Below, piece after piece: positions 17,978 to 38,835 of a stretch of 40,408 nucleotides of DNA (the first letter of the stretch is position 1; every line of letters starts with the position of its first letter). This DNA is from Bacteroidota bacterium (lineage in GTDB: Bacteria; Bacteroidota; Bacteroidia; Bacteroidales; VadinHA17): the NCBI GenBank assembly GCA_030596025.1, contig JAUVKW010000004.1:1-40408 (forward strand), written 5' to 3'. The position numbers and the translations under genes are program-made. The notes below the pieces were generated by a model. That model saw only the letters and a list, made by a program, of their open reading frames with translations. It searched no databases and had not been told where the DNA came from.

Positions 17978-19072
17978 TTAAATTCTACCCAAATACTTAG
18001 AGTAAGTCATTGCAATAGTCCGGTAAACAAAGTGTGCAAATTTGGTATATGGGATATACATAATTACCATCCATACTAAAACGAGATGAATAAAATAGAG
18101 ATGGTAAGCATATGACCAGTTCTGCAACCTTGCAATTTCAATTATTAAACCAGAAGCCGTAAGAAGAAACAATGATATAATAAAAAACCAGTCAGAATAA
18201 TTGCTATTAGTTCGTTTTTCACTATCAAATATCCTCTGCCATATCATGATGCTGCATCCAATTAAAAGAAACAAGCCTGCAAGATTTCCTAATATTTTTA
18301 CAGGGTTCCAGAATGCCATTGGATATTCAAAAAACAATGTGGCCAGAATGGCATAAAATGTTACTGCCAACAACATTACGAATCCCCAGAATACTCCAAA
18401 ATGAGCCCAATATCGGTATCGGTTAGTTGTGCAAAACCGGAAATTCTTATGAGTAAGTATTGTTGAAAGAACTGAAAAAAAACCCGGAAGTAAAGTTCCA
18501 TTAGGTTTTACAACTGTTGTTGAATGTTTAAGATTTTTCCAATATTGTTTCAGACCTATTACAAAACCTGAAAAAGAAGCTAATACAAGTAGTAAAAAAG
18601 AAATATTCAATAATCCATGAGGGAAGAATTTTGAGTAAATAACCGGGCCATCGGGAATTTTAAAAGTTCCTGCCAGTATAAGAATTAAGGATATTATAAC
18701 AACCGGAAAACCAATAATCAGAGGTAAAAAAGCAGGTTTTTGCATTATTATGCCAAGGAAATGCGGTTTTGCGTAATACTGATAACAATAATTACGTAGC
18801 GAAGCAATAACATCACCAGGTCTTATGTCTCGCGGACAGGTAGCTGAGCAATCTCCGCACTGATGACATAACCAGATATCAGGATCTCCAAGCAATTTAT
18901 CTTTTAATCCCCAGCTAGCCCAGATCATCTCTTTACGGGGAAAAGGATTATTTTCAGGTGAAAGATCGCATACTGCAGTGCAACTCCCACATTGCATACA
19001 GGTAGTAAGAACTGATCCACAGTCCTTTTTAAGATGTTTAATAAAGTCAATATCCGGTTCTATGAAACTCAT
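17978..19072 (-). CDS. qmoC: QmoC: quinone-interacting membrane oxidoreductase subunit C
   Basis: A 364-residue fusion of an HdrC-like iron-sulfur domain and an HdrE/NarI-like membrane cytochrome b domain, the architecture of QmoC. Two [4Fe-4S] motifs are visible: C25/C28/C31/C35 (CMQCGSCTAVC) and C69/C72/C75/C79 (CHQCGDCSATC). Six hydrophobic segments follow from about 112 to 350, with conserved His residues in helices (HFGVFWGF, YHLYFIHLVLVW) suitable for heme b. QmoC passes electrons between the menaquinone pool and QmoAB, which in turn serve APS reductase. It is separated from qmoB by 237 bp containing palindromic repeats, unlike the tight spacing elsewhere in the cluster. Confidence 0.92.
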   Translation of the reverse strand: MSFIEPDIDFIKHLKKDCGSVLTTCMQCGSCTAVCDLSPENNPFPRKEMIWASWGLKDKLLGDPDIWLCHQCGDCSATCPRDIRPGDVIASLRNYCYQYYAKPHFLGIIMQKPAFLPLIIGFPVVIISLILILAGTFKIPDGPVIYSKFFPHGLLNISFLLLVLASFSGFVIGLKQYWKNLKHSTTVVKPNGTLLPGFFSVLSTILTHKNFRFCTTNRYRYWAHFGVFWGFVMLLAVTFYAILATLFFEYPMAFWNPVKILGNLAGLFLLIGCSIMIWQRIFDSEKRTNSNYSDWFFIISLFLLTASGLIIEIARLQNWSYAYHLYFIHLVLVWMVIMYIPYTKFAHFVYRTIAMTYSKYLGRI

Positions 19073-19128
19073 AAATTCTTAGTTCTACATTGTTTCAAAT
19101 GCTTAATCTACAAGCATGAACTATTAGT

Positions 19129-19206
19129 GGTCATTCACTCCCTACGGTCGTGTCATTTGCAGGTTTCTCCTGCGTCAAATGATTGCTTCGCAATCGTCAT
19201 TCAATT
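19129..19206. repeat. Palindrome cluster between qmoB and qmoC
   Basis: Two adjoining hairpins occupy this gap. CATTTG-CAGG pairs with CCTG-CGT-CAAATG (19154-19181), and GATTGCTTCGCAATC (19181-19195) is a perfect 6-bp stem with a 3-nt loop. GTCATTCA occurs on both sides (19129-19136 and 19196-19203). The compact, stacked palindromes look like an interspersed intergenic repeat rather than a gene. They may process or stabilise the qmo mRNA; that is inference. Confidence 0.6.
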
Positions 19207-19306
19207 GTAATCGAGCGTTATCTTTATCTCCTTGTCATTCTCTCGCCACTTTTCAAGGCTAATTCCAAACTCTTCCAGGTCATACAGACCCTGAAAGGTT
19301 TCACCG
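19201..19306 (-). other. Short open frame after qmoB without a start codon
   Basis: On the minus strand, +1 relative to qmoB, a frame of about 35 codons runs to a TGA at 19201-19203. Its residues look protein-like (SGETFQGLYDLEEFGISLE, then KWRENDKEIK). No ATG, GTG or TTG start is available after the TAG that opens it. It may be a gene remnant, or chance. I do not recognise it. Confidence 0.25.
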
Positions 19307-19309
19307 CTC

Positions 19310-21454
19310 TTACATATCCTTAAATGGATTGGGCCCTATTTCTTCAATTGTTTCCAAATAATCCTCTATCATTTCAGGGATTCTATTAAACTCGTTGATT
19401 TCTATAAATTCAGTCCTGATTCTTTCAGGTTCAAGCATCATGGTTTGTAATGTTTCCTGTATATTTTCTCCCCGTGTTTCTGTTAGTTCACTGCCATGTA
19501 TGTAGTGGCATTGATAATCATCTCCGGGCTTACATCCAATCTGAAGAATACCATCAAAGCCTTGCGACAGGGCATCGGAGATCCATACTTTATTAACCGA
19601 ACCAATGCAGCGAACAGGTATAATTCTAATGTATGCGCTATATTGTAAATGGTTAATACCGGCCATATCAAATGCCGGATAAGCGTCATTTTCGCAGACA
19701 AATGCGAGGATCCGTGGTTTCTCCTCAAACTCATCTGGAATATGAACTGCCTTGATCATGGATGAAACAGCATTGATTGAAAAATCTTTAAAACTGATAA
19801 TTCGCTCAGGGCAGGAACCCATGCAAATTCCACAGCTACGGCAACGATATGGATTAGGTAAAGGTGTTCCCTTTTCAGTTTCGTCATACGCTCCAAAGGG
19901 ACATTCTTCAGTGCACCGTTTACAATCAGTACATCTTTGCATATATAGTTCAGGGGAACTAATGTCTCCCGAGCGCGGATGAACCGATTCGCCACGTTTG
20001 GTGCTTTCAATACATTGAATAGCTTTCAAAGCCGCCCCTGTAGCATCTTCAATACACGCAGATATGGTGCCAGGAGCCCTGATAGCGCCGGCAGCATATA
20101 TACCGGTCCTCCGGGTTTCGTAAGGGAAGCAGATGAAATGTGAATCTGGAAAATTGTACTTAAGTCCTGGAAGACCTTTCCCCTGTCTGTATGTTAAATT
20201 GAGATCTTCACTATTACGGGGAGTCATTCCCGTGGCCAGTACCACCAGGTCAACTTTAATATTTATTACCTCATCAATTAAAGTATCCTTAACTGTGACC
20301 AGTAACTGATTGTTTTCTTCTGTAATCTCTGATACAGTTCCTTTTGTCAGGAATATTTGTTCGTCTTTTTGGATTTCTTTATAGAAATATTCAAGTTTCC
20401 CTGGCATTCTTATATCCTTGTATACTACAAACACCTTTGTTTCTGTACTGAAATTGCGGATATACTTTGCCTGTTTCAATGAAGTGGCACAACAGAATGC
20501 AGAACAATAAGGAAGATGTTTTTTGTCTCTGGATCCGGCACATTGTATAAACAGTACACTTTGTACATCCTGCCCATTTGAGGGGCGCACAATTTTGCCA
20601 CTTTTTGCCATTTCTTCCAACTCAACATTAGTGACAACATCAGCATGCATACTATAGCCAAATTCTTTTAAGTTCGTGGCATTATAAGGTTCCCAGCCTG
20701 TAGCAAGAATAATGGAAGCCACCATATATTCCATTATGGTATTCTTGTTTAATATAGAAACAGAAAACTCACCAGGCTGTCCTGAAATTTCTTTGATTTC
20801 GGATGAAGTAAGCAGGGTAATATTTTTAAAGCTCTGAAGCTCTTTAATCTTTTCATGTATGATGGGGTCTTGTAAAGTGCCAAACGGATCTGAATACGGA
20901 ACCTGTTTTAAAAGCCTGGAAGACCATCCGCCAGCTTGTGCCTCTTTTTCAACAATTACAACCCGGTATCCGGCTTTAGCACTTTCAATTGCTGAGGTAA
21001 TTCCGGAAATCCCTCCACCTACTACCAGGATATCAGAATTCAGGGTAGAAGAAATAAAGGGCTCTGGTTGCTCAATAATAAGGGCCTTTGCAACTCCCAT
21101 TCTGAGATAATCTTCCGCAAGCATTTGAGTGTCTTCATCATTCGGCGGGTTACACCAGATTACCTGTTCCCTCAAGTTTACACGTTCAACAACAATAGAA
21201 GGATCAAAAGAAAACTCTTTTGTTTTTACACGTGGTGAGCAGGCAGCTATCACAATAGAATGCAATTCCTTGTCGATAATGTCATTGTGAATTATTTCAC
21301 AGTACTTTTTTTGACACAAAAAGGAATGAACTCTGGAAATTGAAATGTCATTGTTCTCTGAAGCTGCAGATTGTAAGGCGTCAATATCCAGGTTTTGTCC
21401 AATGCCACAACCTGAACATACATACACACCAATTTTTTTCGCTTCTTTGTTCAT
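19310..21454 (-). CDS. qmoB: QmoB: HdrA/MvhD-like flavin and iron-sulfur subunit
   Basis: A 714-residue flavoprotein of the HdrA family with the long QmoB architecture. Order: an N-terminal Cys region (VYVCSGCGIGQNLD; SFLCQKKYC), the FAD-binding Rossmann motif ILVVGGGISGITSAIESA (about 142-160), HdrA-typical IQCAGSRDKKHLPYCSAFCC, a second dinucleotide-binding part ending in GIYAAGAIRAPGTI, two ferredoxin motifs (CTDCKRCTEECP and CRSCGICMGSCP) and a C-terminal MvhD-like domain (RILAFVCEND...PVRCIGSVN...IGCKPGDDYQCHY). The end ...GPNPFK plus a few residues is family-typical. It starts with the TAATG overlap at the qmoA stop, so the two are translationally coupled. With qmoA and qmoC it forms the electron path between menaquinone and APS reductase. 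Confidence 0.95.
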   Translation of the reverse strand: MNKEAKKIGVYVCSGCGIGQNLDIDALQSAASENNDISISRVHSFLCQKKYCEIIHNDIIDKELHSIVIAACSPRVKTKEFSFDPSIVVERVNLREQVIWCNPPNDEDTQMLAEDYLRMGVAKALIIEQPEPFISSTLNSDILVVGGGISGITSAIESAKAGYRVVIVEKEAQAGGWSSRLLKQVPYSDPFGTLQDPIIHEKIKELQSFKNITLLTSSEIKEISGQPGEFSVSILNKNTIMEYMVASIILATGWEPYNATNLKEFGYSMHADVVTNVELEEMAKSGKIVRPSNGQDVQSVLFIQCAGSRDKKHLPYCSAFCCATSLKQAKYIRNFSTETKVFVVYKDIRMPGKLEYFYKEIQKDEQIFLTKGTVSEITEENNQLLVTVKDTLIDEVINIKVDLVVLATGMTPRNSEDLNLTYRQGKGLPGLKYNFPDSHFICFPYETRRTGIYAAGAIRAPGTISACIEDATGAALKAIQCIESTKRGESVHPRSGDISSPELYMQRCTDCKRCTEECPFGAYDETEKGTPLPNPYRCRSCGICMGSCPERIISFKDFSINAVSSMIKAVHIPDEFEEKPRILAFVCENDAYPAFDMAGINHLQYSAYIRIIPVRCIGSVNKVWISDALSQGFDGILQIGCKPGDDYQCHYIHGSELTETRGENIQETLQTMMLEPERIRTEFIEINEFNRIPEMIEDYLETIEEIGPNPFKDM

Positions 21455-22731
21455 TATTGTTTAGCTGATTGTATTGCTTTTAAAGCAGCACCAGTTGCAT
21501 CTTTAAGGGATGCCGAAACTTCCTGTGGGTTTTTGTTGCATCCTGCAGCATATATTCCCGGCTCAAGTTTTTCATCTGAGACAAAACCAGATTCGTCTGT
21601 TGAAGTTTTTTCTAGGGAAGAAATATTTGGCACCATTCCAGCAGCCAGAACCACGAGATCAGCTACTGCTGAAATCTTTATACCCGATAAAATATCTTCA
21701 GCTTCGCATATCATATTTCCTGTTTCCTTTTCCTCGCTTATTTTTCCTACTTTTCCCTTGATTAACTCTATCCGGGGATTGTCCAGTATCCGGTTCAAAA
21801 AATCTTCATGCCTGCCCATCAAGCGCAAATCAATATAAAAGATCTTTACATTAGCTTCCGGATATTGTTCAGTCAGATACAAAGCCTGTTTCAAAGAAAC
21901 AGAACAGCAAACTCCGGAACAATAAGGAAGGTAAGATTCATCACGTGAACCTGCACATTGAACAAAAACAATGTTTTTGGGAGCTTCACCATTCGATGGC
22001 TTTACTATTTTTCCTTTATTCGGACCATTCGGTGACGCTATTCTTTCCATCATCAGGTTGGTAATGATATCAGGGAATACACCAAATTTGAGTTCAGGTA
22101 TCTGTGAAACATCAAAAAGTTCCCACCCTGTTGCAAAAACAATTGAGCCAATTTTTAATTCAATAATTTCAGGAAATTGCTCAAAATTTATAGCATCATA
22201 TTTACATACTTCCTGGCATTTCCTGCATTCCTCTTTCAGGCATTTTTTTTCATCTATTACATATTTATGAGGAAAAGCCATTTCATGAGGAAGGAATATT
22301 GCCCGGGATTTATCCAGTCCCAGATTAAAATCGTTTTCTCTTTCTACCGGACATACTTCCACACAATCACCACATGTTGTACATTGATTATTGACATATT
22401 CTGGTTTCAATTCCAGAATAACATCAAAGTTTCCTTCAGAACCTGAAATTTTCTTAACTATTGCAGAAGTTAATACCTGGATTCGGGGATTTTGTCTTAT
22501 CCGACGAAAGTTAATTTCAAGACCACACCAGGGGGGACAAAGTTTCGGAAAGTATTGGTTCATCATTGATACCTTACCACCAAGATAGGCTTGCTGTTCT
22601 ATTAAAACAACTCTATAACCCACTTCAGCGGCCTCAAGGGCAGTGGTAATTCCGGATATTCCACCACCGACTACCAGGATACCCTTGCCAAGACCTTCTG
22701 ATTTTTCTTTAACGCTATTCCCCCTATTCAT
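21454..22731 (-). CDS. qmoA: QmoA: HdrA-like flavin and iron-sulfur subunit
   Basis: A 425-residue HdrA-like flavoprotein. The FAD motif ILVVGGGISGITTALEAA is at 18-35, and the family signature YFPKLCPPWCGLEINFRRI at 60-78. Cys ligands include C117/C120/C123/C127 (CTTCGDCVEVC) and C164/C169/C172/C176 (CLKEECRKCQEVC). The HdrA block VQCAGSRDESYLPYCSGVCC and the C-terminal FAD block GIYAAGCNKNP complete the fold. Length fits QmoA rather than the longer QmoB or methanogen HdrA. Its start overlaps the stop of a short coding-like stretch upstream (22724-22828), and a DUF559 cassette separates it from aprA. The product is a soluble cytoplasmic subunit bound to QmoBC. Confidence 0.95.
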   Translation of the reverse strand: MNRGNSVKEKSEGLGKGILVVGGGISGITTALEAAEVGYRVVLIEQQAYLGGKVSMMNQYFPKLCPPWCGLEINFRRIRQNPRIQVLTSAIVKKISGSEGNFDVILELKPEYVNNQCTTCGDCVEVCPVERENDFNLGLDKSRAIFLPHEMAFPHKYVIDEKKCLKEECRKCQEVCKYDAINFEQFPEIIELKIGSIVFATGWELFDVSQIPELKFGVFPDIITNLMMERIASPNGPNKGKIVKPSNGEAPKNIVFVQCAGSRDESYLPYCSGVCCSVSLKQALYLTEQYPEANVKIFYIDLRLMGRHEDFLNRILDNPRIELIKGKVGKISEEKETGNMICEAEDILSGIKISAVADLVVLAAGMVPNISSLEKTSTDESGFVSDEKLEPGIYAAGCNKNPQEVSASLKDATGAALKAIQSAKQ

Positions 22732-22828
22732 TAAAAATTGATGTTTGTCCTGTTTTTATCAATGCAGCACCCAAATTAGTAAAATCAATACTATAATCGA
22801 ATCCGGATTCCTTAAACCTATAGTCATA
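22724..22828 (-). other. Orphan coding-like 3' fragment overlapping the qmoA start
   Basis: The minus-strand frame that ends at TAG 22724-22726 (inside ATGAATAG of qmoA) reads YDYRFKESGFDYSIDF, then TNLGAALIKTGQTSIFNE. Codon and residue choice look like real protein, and the stop/start overlap with qmoA is the arrangement of coupled genes. Its 5' side runs straight into the terminal repeat of the DUF559 cassette, and no matching 5' part is seen beyond the cassette next to aprA. It could be the tail of a gene cut by the insertion, or chance. The protein family is not recognised. Confidence 0.35.
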
Positions 22829-23314
22829 TCCCCCTTGAGGGGGAACTAAAGGGGGTGGAATTAGCTGCCTGTAATATCCTTAATACATCTCTCAATTTCC
22901 AGGATCACCTGATCTATCCGATTCAAAACCTCTTCATCCCTGAATCGTAATACATGAAAACCGGCCTCCTCTAAATTCCTCTGTTTTATTTTATCTTTTT
23001 TAATTACCTCCTCATCCAGATGAGTAACTCCATCTACCTCAATCACCAAACATAACTTCTTACACATAAAATCAACAATATATGACAAAACAGGCCTTTG
23101 TCTTGTAAAGGAATACCCCATGGTTTCCCTGGCGCGAAGGGCATATTTCCATAAACATGCTTCTGCTTTTGTCATATTCCTTCGTAAGGCTCTTGCCAAA
23201 GGTCTGAGTTTATGGTTGTAATGCCAGTTATTATTTGGTCCTGCAGGTTGCACATTAAACAAATAAATTCATTTTTTCCACCCCCCGCCTACGGCGACCC
23301 CCTCAAGGGGGACA
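22825..23314. mobile_element. DUF559 nuclease cassette with inverted terminal repeats
   Basis: The DUF559 gene is tightly enclosed by inverted repeats. The left end has the hairpin CCCCCTTGAGGGGG (22830-22843) and then GGGGGTGGAA (22851-22860). The right end has TTCCACCCCCC (23276-23286) and then CCCCCTCAAGGGGG (23298-23311), the exact inverse order. The right end carries an extra small hairpin (CGCCTACGGCG). The stop codon touches the left inner repeat, and the start codon lies 13 nt from the right inner repeat. No transposase is present. The whole unit of about 490 bp sits between aprA and qmoA. I recall DUF559 genes in Bacteroidota with similar C/G-run repeats, but could not check. Confidence 0.65.
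22861..23262 (-). CDS. DUF559 endonuclease-like protein (PD-(D/E)XK fold)
   Basis: A 133-residue protein of the DUF559 family, related to very-short-patch-repair (Vsr) and other PD-(D/E)XK nucleases. Typical stretches are LARALRRNMTKAEACLWKYAL (about 22-42), FTRQRPVLSYIVDFMCKKL with the first acidic residue (Asp69), VIEVDGVTH with the second acidic pair, and the C-terminal GFHVLRFRDEEVL. All the expected catalytic-type residues are present, so it may be active. It is inserted in the apr-qmo locus in the same orientation and is unlikely to contribute to sulfur metabolism. It is more probably the cargo or driver of the surrounding inverted-repeat cassette. Confidence 0.92.
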   Translation of the reverse strand: MFNVQPAGPNNNWHYNHKLRPLARALRRNMTKAEACLWKYALRARETMGYSFTRQRPVLSYIVDFMCKKLCLVIEVDGVTHLDEEVIKKDKIKQRNLEEAGFHVLRFRDEEVLNRIDQVILEIERCIKDITGS

Positions 23315-23352
23315 TGGCTTTTTTCTATAATTTTCTTCCCCCTATCTAATAG

Positions 23353-25257
23353 TTAATGTTCTTCCAGATCAACTAAATCAATGATATCTTTTTTTGTCAT
23401 TTCCCACTCATCAGTTTCCGGGTTCCACCTGCTGTTTACAAAGCATTTCCAGTTCTTTTCCATTTTGGGGAAATCAGACCTGAAATAATACCCGGGCCAC
23501 CTGGTTTCTTCTCTGAAAAGCATAGTTTTGATATGGGACTCTGCCTGCCACATGCGATGAATATTCTCCCAGCATCGCATCAGTTCATGTGTATCGGCGG
23601 CAGCAAGCTTTTCAGAATCTTCTTTCATAAATTGCAGAAATTCCAGTCCTTTTTCCATAAGAGGTTTAGACGTTTTAAAGGCATTTGATACTCCTCCTGC
23701 ATATTCATCCATAATTTTTTGCAGTCTGAACATAAACATCCTGGGCTTGATATAATTAGGGTTTATTTCAGGATCGACAGTTAAGTCTTTATGTTGTGTA
23801 AAAACCTCCAAAGGAAGAAATACCTGTTCCTTGATTTTCTCAATGGCTTCCTGTTCAATATTGGGCAGATCGGGATTGTCAACACAAAAGCTAATAGCGG
23901 CTTTAGCAGCAATTCGGCCCTCTGAAAAAGATCCTGATGAGAATTTATGACTTGATGCTCCTGATGCATCACCCGCAGCAAATAATCCCTGAACGGTGGT
24001 CATATTCGGATATCCCCATTTATAATCATCAGGTGCGAGATCTTCGGGACCTGAAACCCAGGCACCTGATCCTCCTGAATGAGATCCTATAAAATATGGT
24101 TCACATGCGGCAATTTCCGAAGGTTTTTCCTCTGGTTTAACATTGGTTGATGCCCATAATAAAGCCTGGCTTATGGTCATATCAAGAAAGTCTTCCCAGG
24201 CTTCGCTTTCAAGTTTTTTTAATGTCCTTTTAGCAGATTTCTCATCATCTGCTTCGTTTACAATTTTTTGAATTGCCTTTTCAGTCCTCATATATATCGG
24301 GGAATTGCCATCTTCGACCTCAAGCATCATCAGGTAATTTCGAAGGTTGGCAGGAGTTGGTTTTGCAGTTCCATAGGGTAGCCAGTTTTTCAGCTCTTCT
24401 GCTCTTTTCTCCATATAATCTTCGCCAAGTGCATTGGTTGCCTGTGCCTTAAATAGTAGAAACCATGCACCTACCGGACCATAAGCATCTTTGAATCTTA
24501 CCGGGACAAACCGGATTTCCTGACATGTCATTTCGGCTCCGGCCCTGATAGCAAAATATGCACTGGCACCTGAATTAAACGGGGGGTACCACGAACGGCC
24601 AAGGCCTTCTCCCATTGATTTGGGCTTAAATACATGCACAGCTCCTCCCATTACATCAATCACACTTTTTGCTCTGAATATATAAAACTTATTTTCTCTC
24701 AGGCTAAAACCAGCTGCACCAACGCACCTTCCCTCTTTCATTAGTGGACCTGTAATAAATATCCTTTCATAATAAGTCCCGTTTTCTCCTAATTCAGCAA
24801 GTGCATTTTTTGCAGCTTCCGCAACAATGGTTTTATAAGATTCTCCATTAATCATTATCTGCCACCTGCCCTCTCGAATATACTTCCCCTCCTCATCTTT
24901 CCAGATGGGCAGACCCCATTTTTCAAAAAGATGCACAGATGCATCCACATGCCTGGCAATATTTGCCACAAGATCATCCCTTACCACACCCATAAGGTCG
25001 TTTTTTACGTAGCGTACATAATCTTCCAGGGTATTTGTTCCATCTTTTAATCCTATGTACTCATTTATAGCAGATAATCCCATGGCTACTGCTCCGCTAC
25101 GTTCCATAGCTGCTTTATCAACGAGCGTAACCTTTAAGTTATGTTGTTTTGCCCAGTGTGCTGCCTCAAAAGCAGCGCCACATGCTGCCATTCCACCTCC
25201 AAGGATTAACAAATCGGTAGTAACTTCAATGGTTTCAAAATTATTGATGATATCCAT
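23353..25257 (-). CDS. aprA: AprA: adenylylsulfate (APS) reductase alpha subunit
   Basis: A 634-residue FAD enzyme that interconverts APS and sulfite plus AMP. The N-terminal FAD motif LLILGGGMAACGAAFEAA covers 16-33. The AprA-specific active-site segments are present: RFVPVRFKDAYGPVGAWF with Arg254 (equivalent to Arg265 of the Archaeoglobus enzyme) and SHSGGSGAW with His393 (equivalent to His398). GLFAAGDASGASSHKFSSG (424-442) is the second FAD block. Length and C-terminal residues (TRWPGYYFRSDFP) match full-length dissimilatory AprA and not fumarate reductase or L-aspartate oxidase. It starts 2 nt after aprB. The natural redox partner QmoABC lies downstream. The protein is cytoplasmic. The sequence alone does not tell me whether it belongs to the reducing or the oxidising branch. 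Confidence 0.97.
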   Translation of the reverse strand: MDIINNFETIEVTTDLLILGGGMAACGAAFEAAHWAKQHNLKVTLVDKAAMERSGAVAMGLSAINEYIGLKDGTNTLEDYVRYVKNDLMGVVRDDLVANIARHVDASVHLFEKWGLPIWKDEEGKYIREGRWQIMINGESYKTIVAEAAKNALAELGENGTYYERIFITGPLMKEGRCVGAAGFSLRENKFYIFRAKSVIDVMGGAVHVFKPKSMGEGLGRSWYPPFNSGASAYFAIRAGAEMTCQEIRFVPVRFKDAYGPVGAWFLLFKAQATNALGEDYMEKRAEELKNWLPYGTAKPTPANLRNYLMMLEVEDGNSPIYMRTEKAIQKIVNEADDEKSAKRTLKKLESEAWEDFLDMTISQALLWASTNVKPEEKPSEIAACEPYFIGSHSGGSGAWVSGPEDLAPDDYKWGYPNMTTVQGLFAAGDASGASSHKFSSGSFSEGRIAAKAAISFCVDNPDLPNIEQEAIEKIKEQVFLPLEVFTQHKDLTVDPEINPNYIKPRMFMFRLQKIMDEYAGGVSNAFKTSKPLMEKGLEFLQFMKEDSEKLAAADTHELMRCWENIHRMWQAESHIKTMLFREETRWPGYYFRSDFPKMEKNWKCFVNSRWNPETDEWEMTKKDIIDLVDLEEH

Positions 25258-25259
25258 AA

Positions 25260-25700
25260 TTAGTCAAGTTTTGATAGATCAGACATACCTGATGATTCAG
25301 GTTCGGTTCTTAAAAGGGGACTTTTCAGGTCGGAAGTCCCGGTTGAATATCCGGCATCAGGCTCAATACTGCCTTCAGGAGTAGTACGGGTTTTAAACCT
25401 GAATCGTTTTATATCACCATCCCGGAACTTTACAGACCACATAATAGCATCTGAACTCCTCATGGGTTGCACTACACCGCCCAGAGGCATGAAATCAGCA
25501 TAACCCCTTACCTCAATTGCCTGGGTTGGGCAAATTTTTACGCAACTATAACACTCCCAACACATTTCAGGGGCCCTGTTTATAGCTTTCTCAGTAGATT
25601 TATCAAGTACCATCAGATCATTTGGACATATGTACTGACAGGCTGTGAGGTCAAGGGCTTTACAGCCATCGCATTTTTGGGTAATAACAAAACTTGGCAT
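25260..25700 (-). CDS. aprB: AprB: adenylylsulfate (APS) reductase beta subunit
   Basis: A 146-residue ferredoxin-like subunit of APS reductase. Two [4Fe-4S] motifs are complete: C10/C13/C21/C25 (with the AprB-typical long spacing in CDGCKALDLTACQYIC) and C47/C50/C53/C57 (CWECYSCVKIC). The AprB segment YADFMPLGGVVQPMRSSD and the tail RTTPEGSIEPD that wraps around AprA are present. It is the first gene of the cluster. The upstream 655 bp hold no gene, so its promoter must lie there. No sat gene precedes it, unlike the sat-aprBA-qmoABC order seen in many sulfate reducers and green sulfur bacteria. Confidence 0.96.
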   Translation of the reverse strand: MPSFVITQKCDGCKALDLTACQYICPNDLMVLDKSTEKAINRAPEMCWECYSCVKICPTQAIEVRGYADFMPLGGVVQPMRSSDAIMWSVKFRDGDIKRFRFKTRTTPEGSIEPDAGYSTGTSDLKSPLLRTEPESSGMSDLSKLD

Positions 25701-38701: not shown

Positions 38702-38821
38702 TTCTATGCGGTCCGGGAAATGGCAAGCTTCATTTAATCCCCTCGTTGCGGACCTCATAACATGCATTGTCCCCTTACCAGGGGCTCCGCCCCTGGCTGT
38801 TATATGACACCCTTTCAGGGC
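38702..38821. repeat. Palindrome-rich intergenic repeat
   Basis: GGTCCG (38710-38715) is repeated inverted as CGGACC (38749-38754). CCAGGGGCTCCGCCCCTGG (38778-38796) is a perfect 8-bp stem with a 3-nt loop. CCCT/AGGG (38810-38820) forms a third small hairpin. The GC content is clearly above the flanking DNA. This looks like an interspersed Bacteroidota repeat placed between the carboxylase and dehydrogenase genes. No gene is seen here. Confidence 0.6.
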
Positions 38822-38835
38822 TTAATTTATGCACA

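Follow-up and report, generated by a model that had tools for sequence, protein, structure and literature searches.

The window, that is the whole stretch of 40,408 nucleotides of Bacteroidota DNA analysed here, holds between aprA and qmoA a DUF559 nuclease gene bounded by inverted BoxC-like repeats. We read this feature as a homing-endonuclease-like selfish cassette and put the probability of this reading at roughly 0.6. An earlier, sequence-only reading had proposed a non-autonomous or homing-like mobile unit, so far undefined; our comparisons support this proposal, and the nuclease would then provide its own mobility. They go beyond it in two respects: the repeats are BoxC/triplex-like, and the same kind of unit is found in frame within essential genes.

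The cassette between aprA and qmoA

The cassette and its surroundings comprise the following features:

22829..23312, minus strand: mobile unit of about 484 bp, outer hairpin edge to outer hairpin edge, delimited by blast blocks to genomes G006, G023 and G004
22822..22860: qmoA-side terminal repeat, with the hairpin CCCCCTTGAGGGGG at 22830-22843, a 7-nt linker and a GGGGGTGGAA block at 22851-22860; unit homology stops here
23277..23319: aprA-side terminal repeat, inverted, with a TCCACCCCCC block at 23277-23286 and a small stem GCC-TAC-GGC
23298-23311: hairpin of the aprA-side repeat, CCCCCTCAAGGGGG; unit homology stops here
22861..23262, minus strand: DUF559 nuclease ORF (EDxHD/Vsr-like), 133 aa from TTG, probably 130 aa from GTG at 23253
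22745..22829: dispersed repeat of about 80 bp adjoining the cassette, found without it as well in the same genome
23353..25257, minus strand: aprA, upstream neighbour, intact (TIGR02061, E 1e-272)
21454..22731, minus strand: qmoA (HdrA-type flavoprotein), downstream neighbour, intact, with a 91% identical orthologue in G001

The ORF of 402 nt matches DUF559 (Pfam PF04480, E 1.4e-31) and is enclosed by inverted arms of 22 nt (22822-22843 and 23298-23319; 91% complementary, 454 nt between them), whose terminal sequence consists of CCCCCTTGAGGGGG and a GGGGGTGG block. The second block, GGGGGTGGAA, has its complement, TCCACCCCCC, on the other side. With up to two mismatches allowed, CCCCCTTGAGGGGG occurs at just two places in the window (four strand matches vs. 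0.17 expected; 0 of 100 shuffles). The arms, this restriction to two sites and the Pfam match bear out the earlier description of a lone DUF559 gene between inverted hairpin repeats. Equally, no transposase gene lies between aprA and qmoA in the window sequence, and the cassette separates two intact genes without damage to either, both as had been claimed. Relatives point to the GTG at 23253 as the true start. The copy is intergenic with its hairpins outermost. No target-site duplication was seen at the window, where just a weak direct repeat of 26 nt (81%) is present, which is probably ribosome-site-like.

When the cassette and its surroundings were compared by blast against the loci of related genomes, copies in G006 and G023 and one copy in G004, a member of a sister genus, matched from query position 41 or 39 to 523 or 526. 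The matched span reaches exactly from outer hairpin edge to outer hairpin edge, and the sequences beyond are unrelated. Because the outer hairpin edges delimit the homology to copies in other contexts on both sides, the window cassette is a discrete unit (about 22829-23312). Of the 11 DUF559 matches in G004, 8 lie no more than 25 bp from the end of a contig, the usual fate of repeats in short-read assemblies. At four loci of this genome (L036, L037, L040, L043) a second cassette subfamily apparently lies inside a larger unit, bounded on the outside by inverted ends around AATCGCTCTGTTCTAA / TTAGAACAGAGCGATT.

The arrangement is not universal among relatives, which bears on the mobility that had been proposed. 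The congener G001 carries the same insertion in decayed form, the 5' half of DUF559 being deleted, whereas G004 (aprA 94% identical) and the more distant G049, G022, G042 and G013 possess the apr-qmo genes without the cassette; in several of the cassette-free relatives aprA and qmoA are almost adjacent. Since at this locus the cassette is found in the congener only, half deleted, and is absent from G004 and four others, we conclude that the insertion is young compared with the locus and that one branch is losing it by decay. Extra palindromes of type GTCATTCTGAATTTATTTCAGAATCT occur between the decayed cassette and qmoA in G001 (L329, G001:C85).

Other observations in the window concern its wider content. 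At 17978-25700 this Bacteroidota genome carries aprBA together with genes of the qmoABC type, with qmoC located further on past the qmoA-type HdrA homologue, and aprA was found in 6 of 40 genomes searched, hence a patchy trait. The dispersed repeat next to the cassette is also present at G000:C194:24952-25032 and on several G004 contigs. At the contig edge (1-270) there is a tandem duplication of 104 bp with tRNA matches at 93-171 (weak) and 197-270 (strong), and an Acido-Lenti-1 RNA match at 38778-38822 (plus strand) scores 37.3, barely over the Rfam gathering score of 37.

Flanking repeats and the nuclease they enclose

DUF559 was detected in 171 of 296 genomes of a Bacteroidota draw that covered the whole phylum. 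The sequence-only reading had suggested comparing the flanks of such homologues, and most of them do carry flanking inverted repeats. If upstream flanks are aligned to reverse-complemented downstream flanks, 52 of 90 DUF559 genes score above the 99th percentile of control positions. Under a three-block rule (C-rich arm, complementary arm, extra G- or C-rich block), an inverted pair encloses 63% of 174 DUF559 domains vs. 0.14% of 3607 control positions drawn from the same loci, an enrichment of about 450-fold, and at least one three-block repeat accompanies 83% of the domains (n = 174) vs. 3.7% of controls. About a third of the copies show no clear repeat pair under the rules used. Skew-based calling of repeat orientation was too noisy, so block rules were used instead, and a genome scan with a short pattern, GGGGGTGGAA near ATG, was uninformative.

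The repeats of related nucleases in different genomes resemble each other with a mean likeness of 0.54 vs. 0.30 between families (p 2e-12), a value that stems in part from copies at the same site, which are not independent events. For unrelated nucleases within one genome the likeness is 0.35 vs. 0.30 between families (p 0.08). As judged from these comparisons, the repeat sequence tracks the nuclease lineage and not the host genome. Records of Sinorhizobium, Novosphingobium, Synechocystis, Deinococcus, Azospirillum and others also have DUF559 genes that adjoin repeats of this kind, several of which were called by eye, with a pair score that is not high. The layout varies: copies inside ORFs almost always have the hairpins innermost (52 vs. 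6), while standalone copies show both layouts. Cassettes of Prevotella-type genomes (L220, L230, L241, L275 and L226, L270, L281) sit at gene junctions that precede ArgC-like and 2-oxoacid oxidoreductase beta-like genes, named from sequence by eye, and their right repeat reaches into the next coding sequence downstream.

BoxC/triplex repeats, on record since the 1990s, occur in hundreds of bacteria. In E. coli they are called BoxC, PIT or intrastrand triplex motif, with the consensus CCCTCNCCC N3-6 GGGNGAGGG N3 GGGNGAGGG; they are widespread, present without DUF559 in many genomes, and a dedicated study found no mobility genes near them (PMC4666352). The window repeat shares their block order, a C-rich arm, a complementary G-rich arm and a further G-rich block, but its stems are shorter and its linkers longer. 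With CCCCC-N4-GGGGG-N7 or N11-GGGGG(G) it lies outside the published consensus; given the same block order and different lengths, we call it BoxC-like and not a BoxC member. Moreover, BoxC is known as solo or paired repeats without a mobility gene, whereas the window repeats flank DUF559. A DUF559 arm of S. meliloti contains CCCCTCTCCCC..GGGGAGAGGGCTAGGGTGAGGGG, which is close to the TMECO consensus, and E. coli has BoxC between ycjD (DUF559) and fabI, on one side only under the rules used. In some E. coli strains (L324-L328) sapF is followed by an efflux operon in place of the ycjD and BoxC of most strains; these strains were considered as an empty site and rejected, as the locus holds the efflux operon instead. 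A CGTC-REP identity of the window repeat, considered after PMC3733652, was discarded as the stems do not fit. The open-access literature searched yielded no paper on a link between DUF559 and BoxC or on in-frame inserts of DUF559.

DUF559 itself is related in sequence and in predicted fold to the homing endonuclease I-Bth0305I. A profile search finds the DUF559 structure 3HRL and I-Bth0305I (3R3P, E 3e-7), and Foldseek matches the AlphaFold2 model of the window protein (pLDDT 88) to 3HRL, to I-Bth0305I (E 4.5e-4, TM 0.77 on target) and, more distantly, to Vsr. One paper places DUF559 in the EDxHD family in passing (PMC9403480). Six residues, E34, D64, E75, D77, H81 and D90 in window numbering, are invariant in 45 sequences. 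The median dN/dS is 0.11 over 49 pairs, in-frame copies included, and purifying selection of this kind is not expected of a merely tolerated spacer domain.

In-frame copies and their movement

Many DUF559 matches sit within open frames of 850-1480 aa; the count of 55 in long frames among 79 copies is a biased figure, since the query was drawn from the in-frame clade. Based on junctions and Pfam matches, the hosts are LeuRS (two sites), IleRS, ValRS, MetRS, RecG and MetH, and further methylmalonyl-CoA mutase, type I restriction subunits and others. Type strains are among the carriers, such as Algibacter pectinivorans DSM 25730 (RecG) and Salegentibacter holothuriorum DSM 23405 (IleRS). The repeats are translated along with the domain into peptides such as LSPSPSPQEKG or LSLGEGQGE. 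In 9 of 9 genomes tested, two of which are single contigs, the interrupted leuS encodes the sole LeuRS detected. An intein is ruled out by the lack of any Hint splicing domain in nine host proteins (Pfam), and an RNA intron by the lack of group I or II matches to Rfam in 12 sources. One contig filed as a Limnohabitans MAG (L206) carries a flavobacterial RecG with DUF559 and is probably misbinned.

In a tree of 108 DUF559 domains, copies from different genera and families fall together according to the site at which they are inserted. The site clades have SH-aLRT supports of 95 for RecG, 99 for HsdR (4 of 6 HsdR copies, from three families) and 97 for HemF; the MetH copies form one weakly supported clade over three families, and the LeuRS copies do not form a single clade. 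Occupancy is patchy: within one genus the RecG insert is present at the same codon in 5 of about 99 genomes, nearly all others being empty, and the host trees require at least 5 changes for RecG and at least 6 for MetH. Repeat remnants without nuclease are left in the RecG of G440 and the MetH of G141. Empty sites, which the sequence-only reading had suggested looking for, exist at RecG, where AATGA of close empty relatives is replaced in G385 by an element starting with GCC and ending with GGC. No target-site duplication is visible in this comparison, and a clean empty allele was not obtained at apr-qmo, since G004 has unrelated filler there.

The clearest trace of movement is found in G348 and G412, two species with nearly identical RecG inserts and about 6-9% divergence in the flanks: 2 of 435 positions differ in the insert vs. 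34 of 600 in its nearest surroundings (300 bp per side; p 1e-6), and the edge of the transferred tract coincides sharply with that of the insert. At the level of sequence comparison this single case indicates recent horizontal movement at the RecG site, with weaker signals from G385/G442.

We therefore favor a cassette that spreads by homing, although several links in that scheme are conditional. The DUF559 nuclease would cut an unoccupied target, and host recombination would copy the cassette into the break; the repeats might protect from cutting, be recognized as ends or stall replication. Intergenic copies and copies read in frame through both repeats represent two layouts of one design; the latter add a domain to housekeeping proteins, in their surface loops, and need no splicing. 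Against homing stands, first, that in the small protein, in contrast to I-Bth0305I, no additional DNA-binding domain is visible, and that about a third of the copies show no clear pair. Second, the MetH clade is weakly supported, RecG occupancy could reflect old inheritance with many losses, and the apr-qmo locus contributes no clean empty allele. Third, homing often co-converts flanks, and targeted transposition would fit the sharp edge of the G348/G412 tract equally well.

Competing explanations and known systems

In view of these sharp edges and of the coupling of repeat and nuclease, DUF559 could also act in the manner of a transposase, which we regard as a serious though clearly less probable alternative. 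The RAYT tyrosine transposase is thought to mobilize REPs; by analogy, DUF559 might recognize its terminal repeats (hairpin plus third G-rich strand) and mobilize solo BoxC repeats as well as the cassette that encodes it. That the unit ends at the repeats and that relic ends without DUF559 exist would fit, as would the wide distribution of BoxC/TM repeats for which no mobility gene is known (PMC4666352). However, the insert lineages keep to one gene and codon across families, unlike scattered transposition, the RecG empty-site comparison shows no target-site duplication, and the family consists of hydrolytic PD-(D/E)XK-type nucleases and not of strand transferases.

It is improbable that DUF559 is a hitchhiker, caught between pre-existing BoxC-like repeats and moved by inter-repeat recombination or other enzymes. 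While BoxC without DUF559 in many genomes (PMC4666352) and the one-sided BoxC of E. coli ycjD speak for this scenario, the 450-fold enrichment speaks against it, as do repeats that are far closer to those of related DUF559 genes elsewhere than to those of other DUF559 genes in the same genome.

Slightly less credible still is a host gene kept for its benefit, a Vsr-like repair or defence nuclease with repeats acting as terminators or mRNA stabilizers. Such a role would agree with the purifying selection and with Caulobacter VsrA, a DUF559 protein that affects the DNA damage response (PMC12907096), but hardly with in-frame copies in LeuRS, MetH, RecG and IleRS, nor with patchy occupancy, scars and the horizontal movement of one insert. 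The terminator reading of the window hairpins was rejected as well: a T-tract is missing, and their folding is hardly distinguishable from that of shuffled sequence (z between -0.5 and -0.7, with a folding tool that has no triplex model). A chance pairing of G/C-rich hairpins about an ordinary small gene, which the shortness of the 22-nt arms might invite, is refuted by the shuffles, flank controls, unit boundaries and three-block controls.

DUF559 is a very common family of unknown role, and the homing-like cassette would assign a function to it. A nuclease family tied to BoxC-like repeats makes the origin of BoxC directly testable, and the cassette may explain the spread of these repeats. 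In addition, the essential single-copy LeuRS as well as IleRS and MetH contain a nuclease domain that is complete and conserved, and nothing points to its being spliced out; in this way a selfish element can go unnoticed as a domain that its host protein tolerates, and its loss can leave a peptide scar behind. Tentatively, and with somewhat less than even confidence, we suggest an undefined class of mobile elements in which DUF559 and its own inverted BoxC/triplex ends move without transposase or splicing, intergenically as well as in frame, and which might be the source of BoxC-type repeats across phyla.

Among known systems, the EDxHD homing endonucleases (I-Bth0305I) and free-standing homing genes share profile, fold and conserved E/D/H/D residues with DUF559, as well as fixed sites in conserved genes and patchy occupancy. 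Yet the DUF559 cassette lies in neither intron nor intein, is bounded by inverted BoxC-like repeats, is often translated in frame within a host protein and shows no separate DNA-binding region. Inteins are likewise selfish in-frame insertions, but possess the Hint domain and the splicing that DUF559 cassettes lack. IS elements and MITEs have inverted repeat ends too; the window unit is not one of them, as no transposase lies between aprA and qmoA and no duplication appeared at the RecG empty site. Rickettsia palindromic elements (RPE) and in-frame REPs are also palindromic repeats within the frames of housekeeping genes, whereas RPEs carry no nuclease gene (PMC3733652). REP/BIME sequences with RAYT (REPtrons) share a nuclease-type gene between inverted palindromes tied to its lineage, and relic repeats. 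Nevertheless, the cassette does not belong to them: its gene is DUF559, a different enzyme class from the Y1 HuH transposase, its repeats in the window have no GTAG tag, and its relatives occupy fixed codons.
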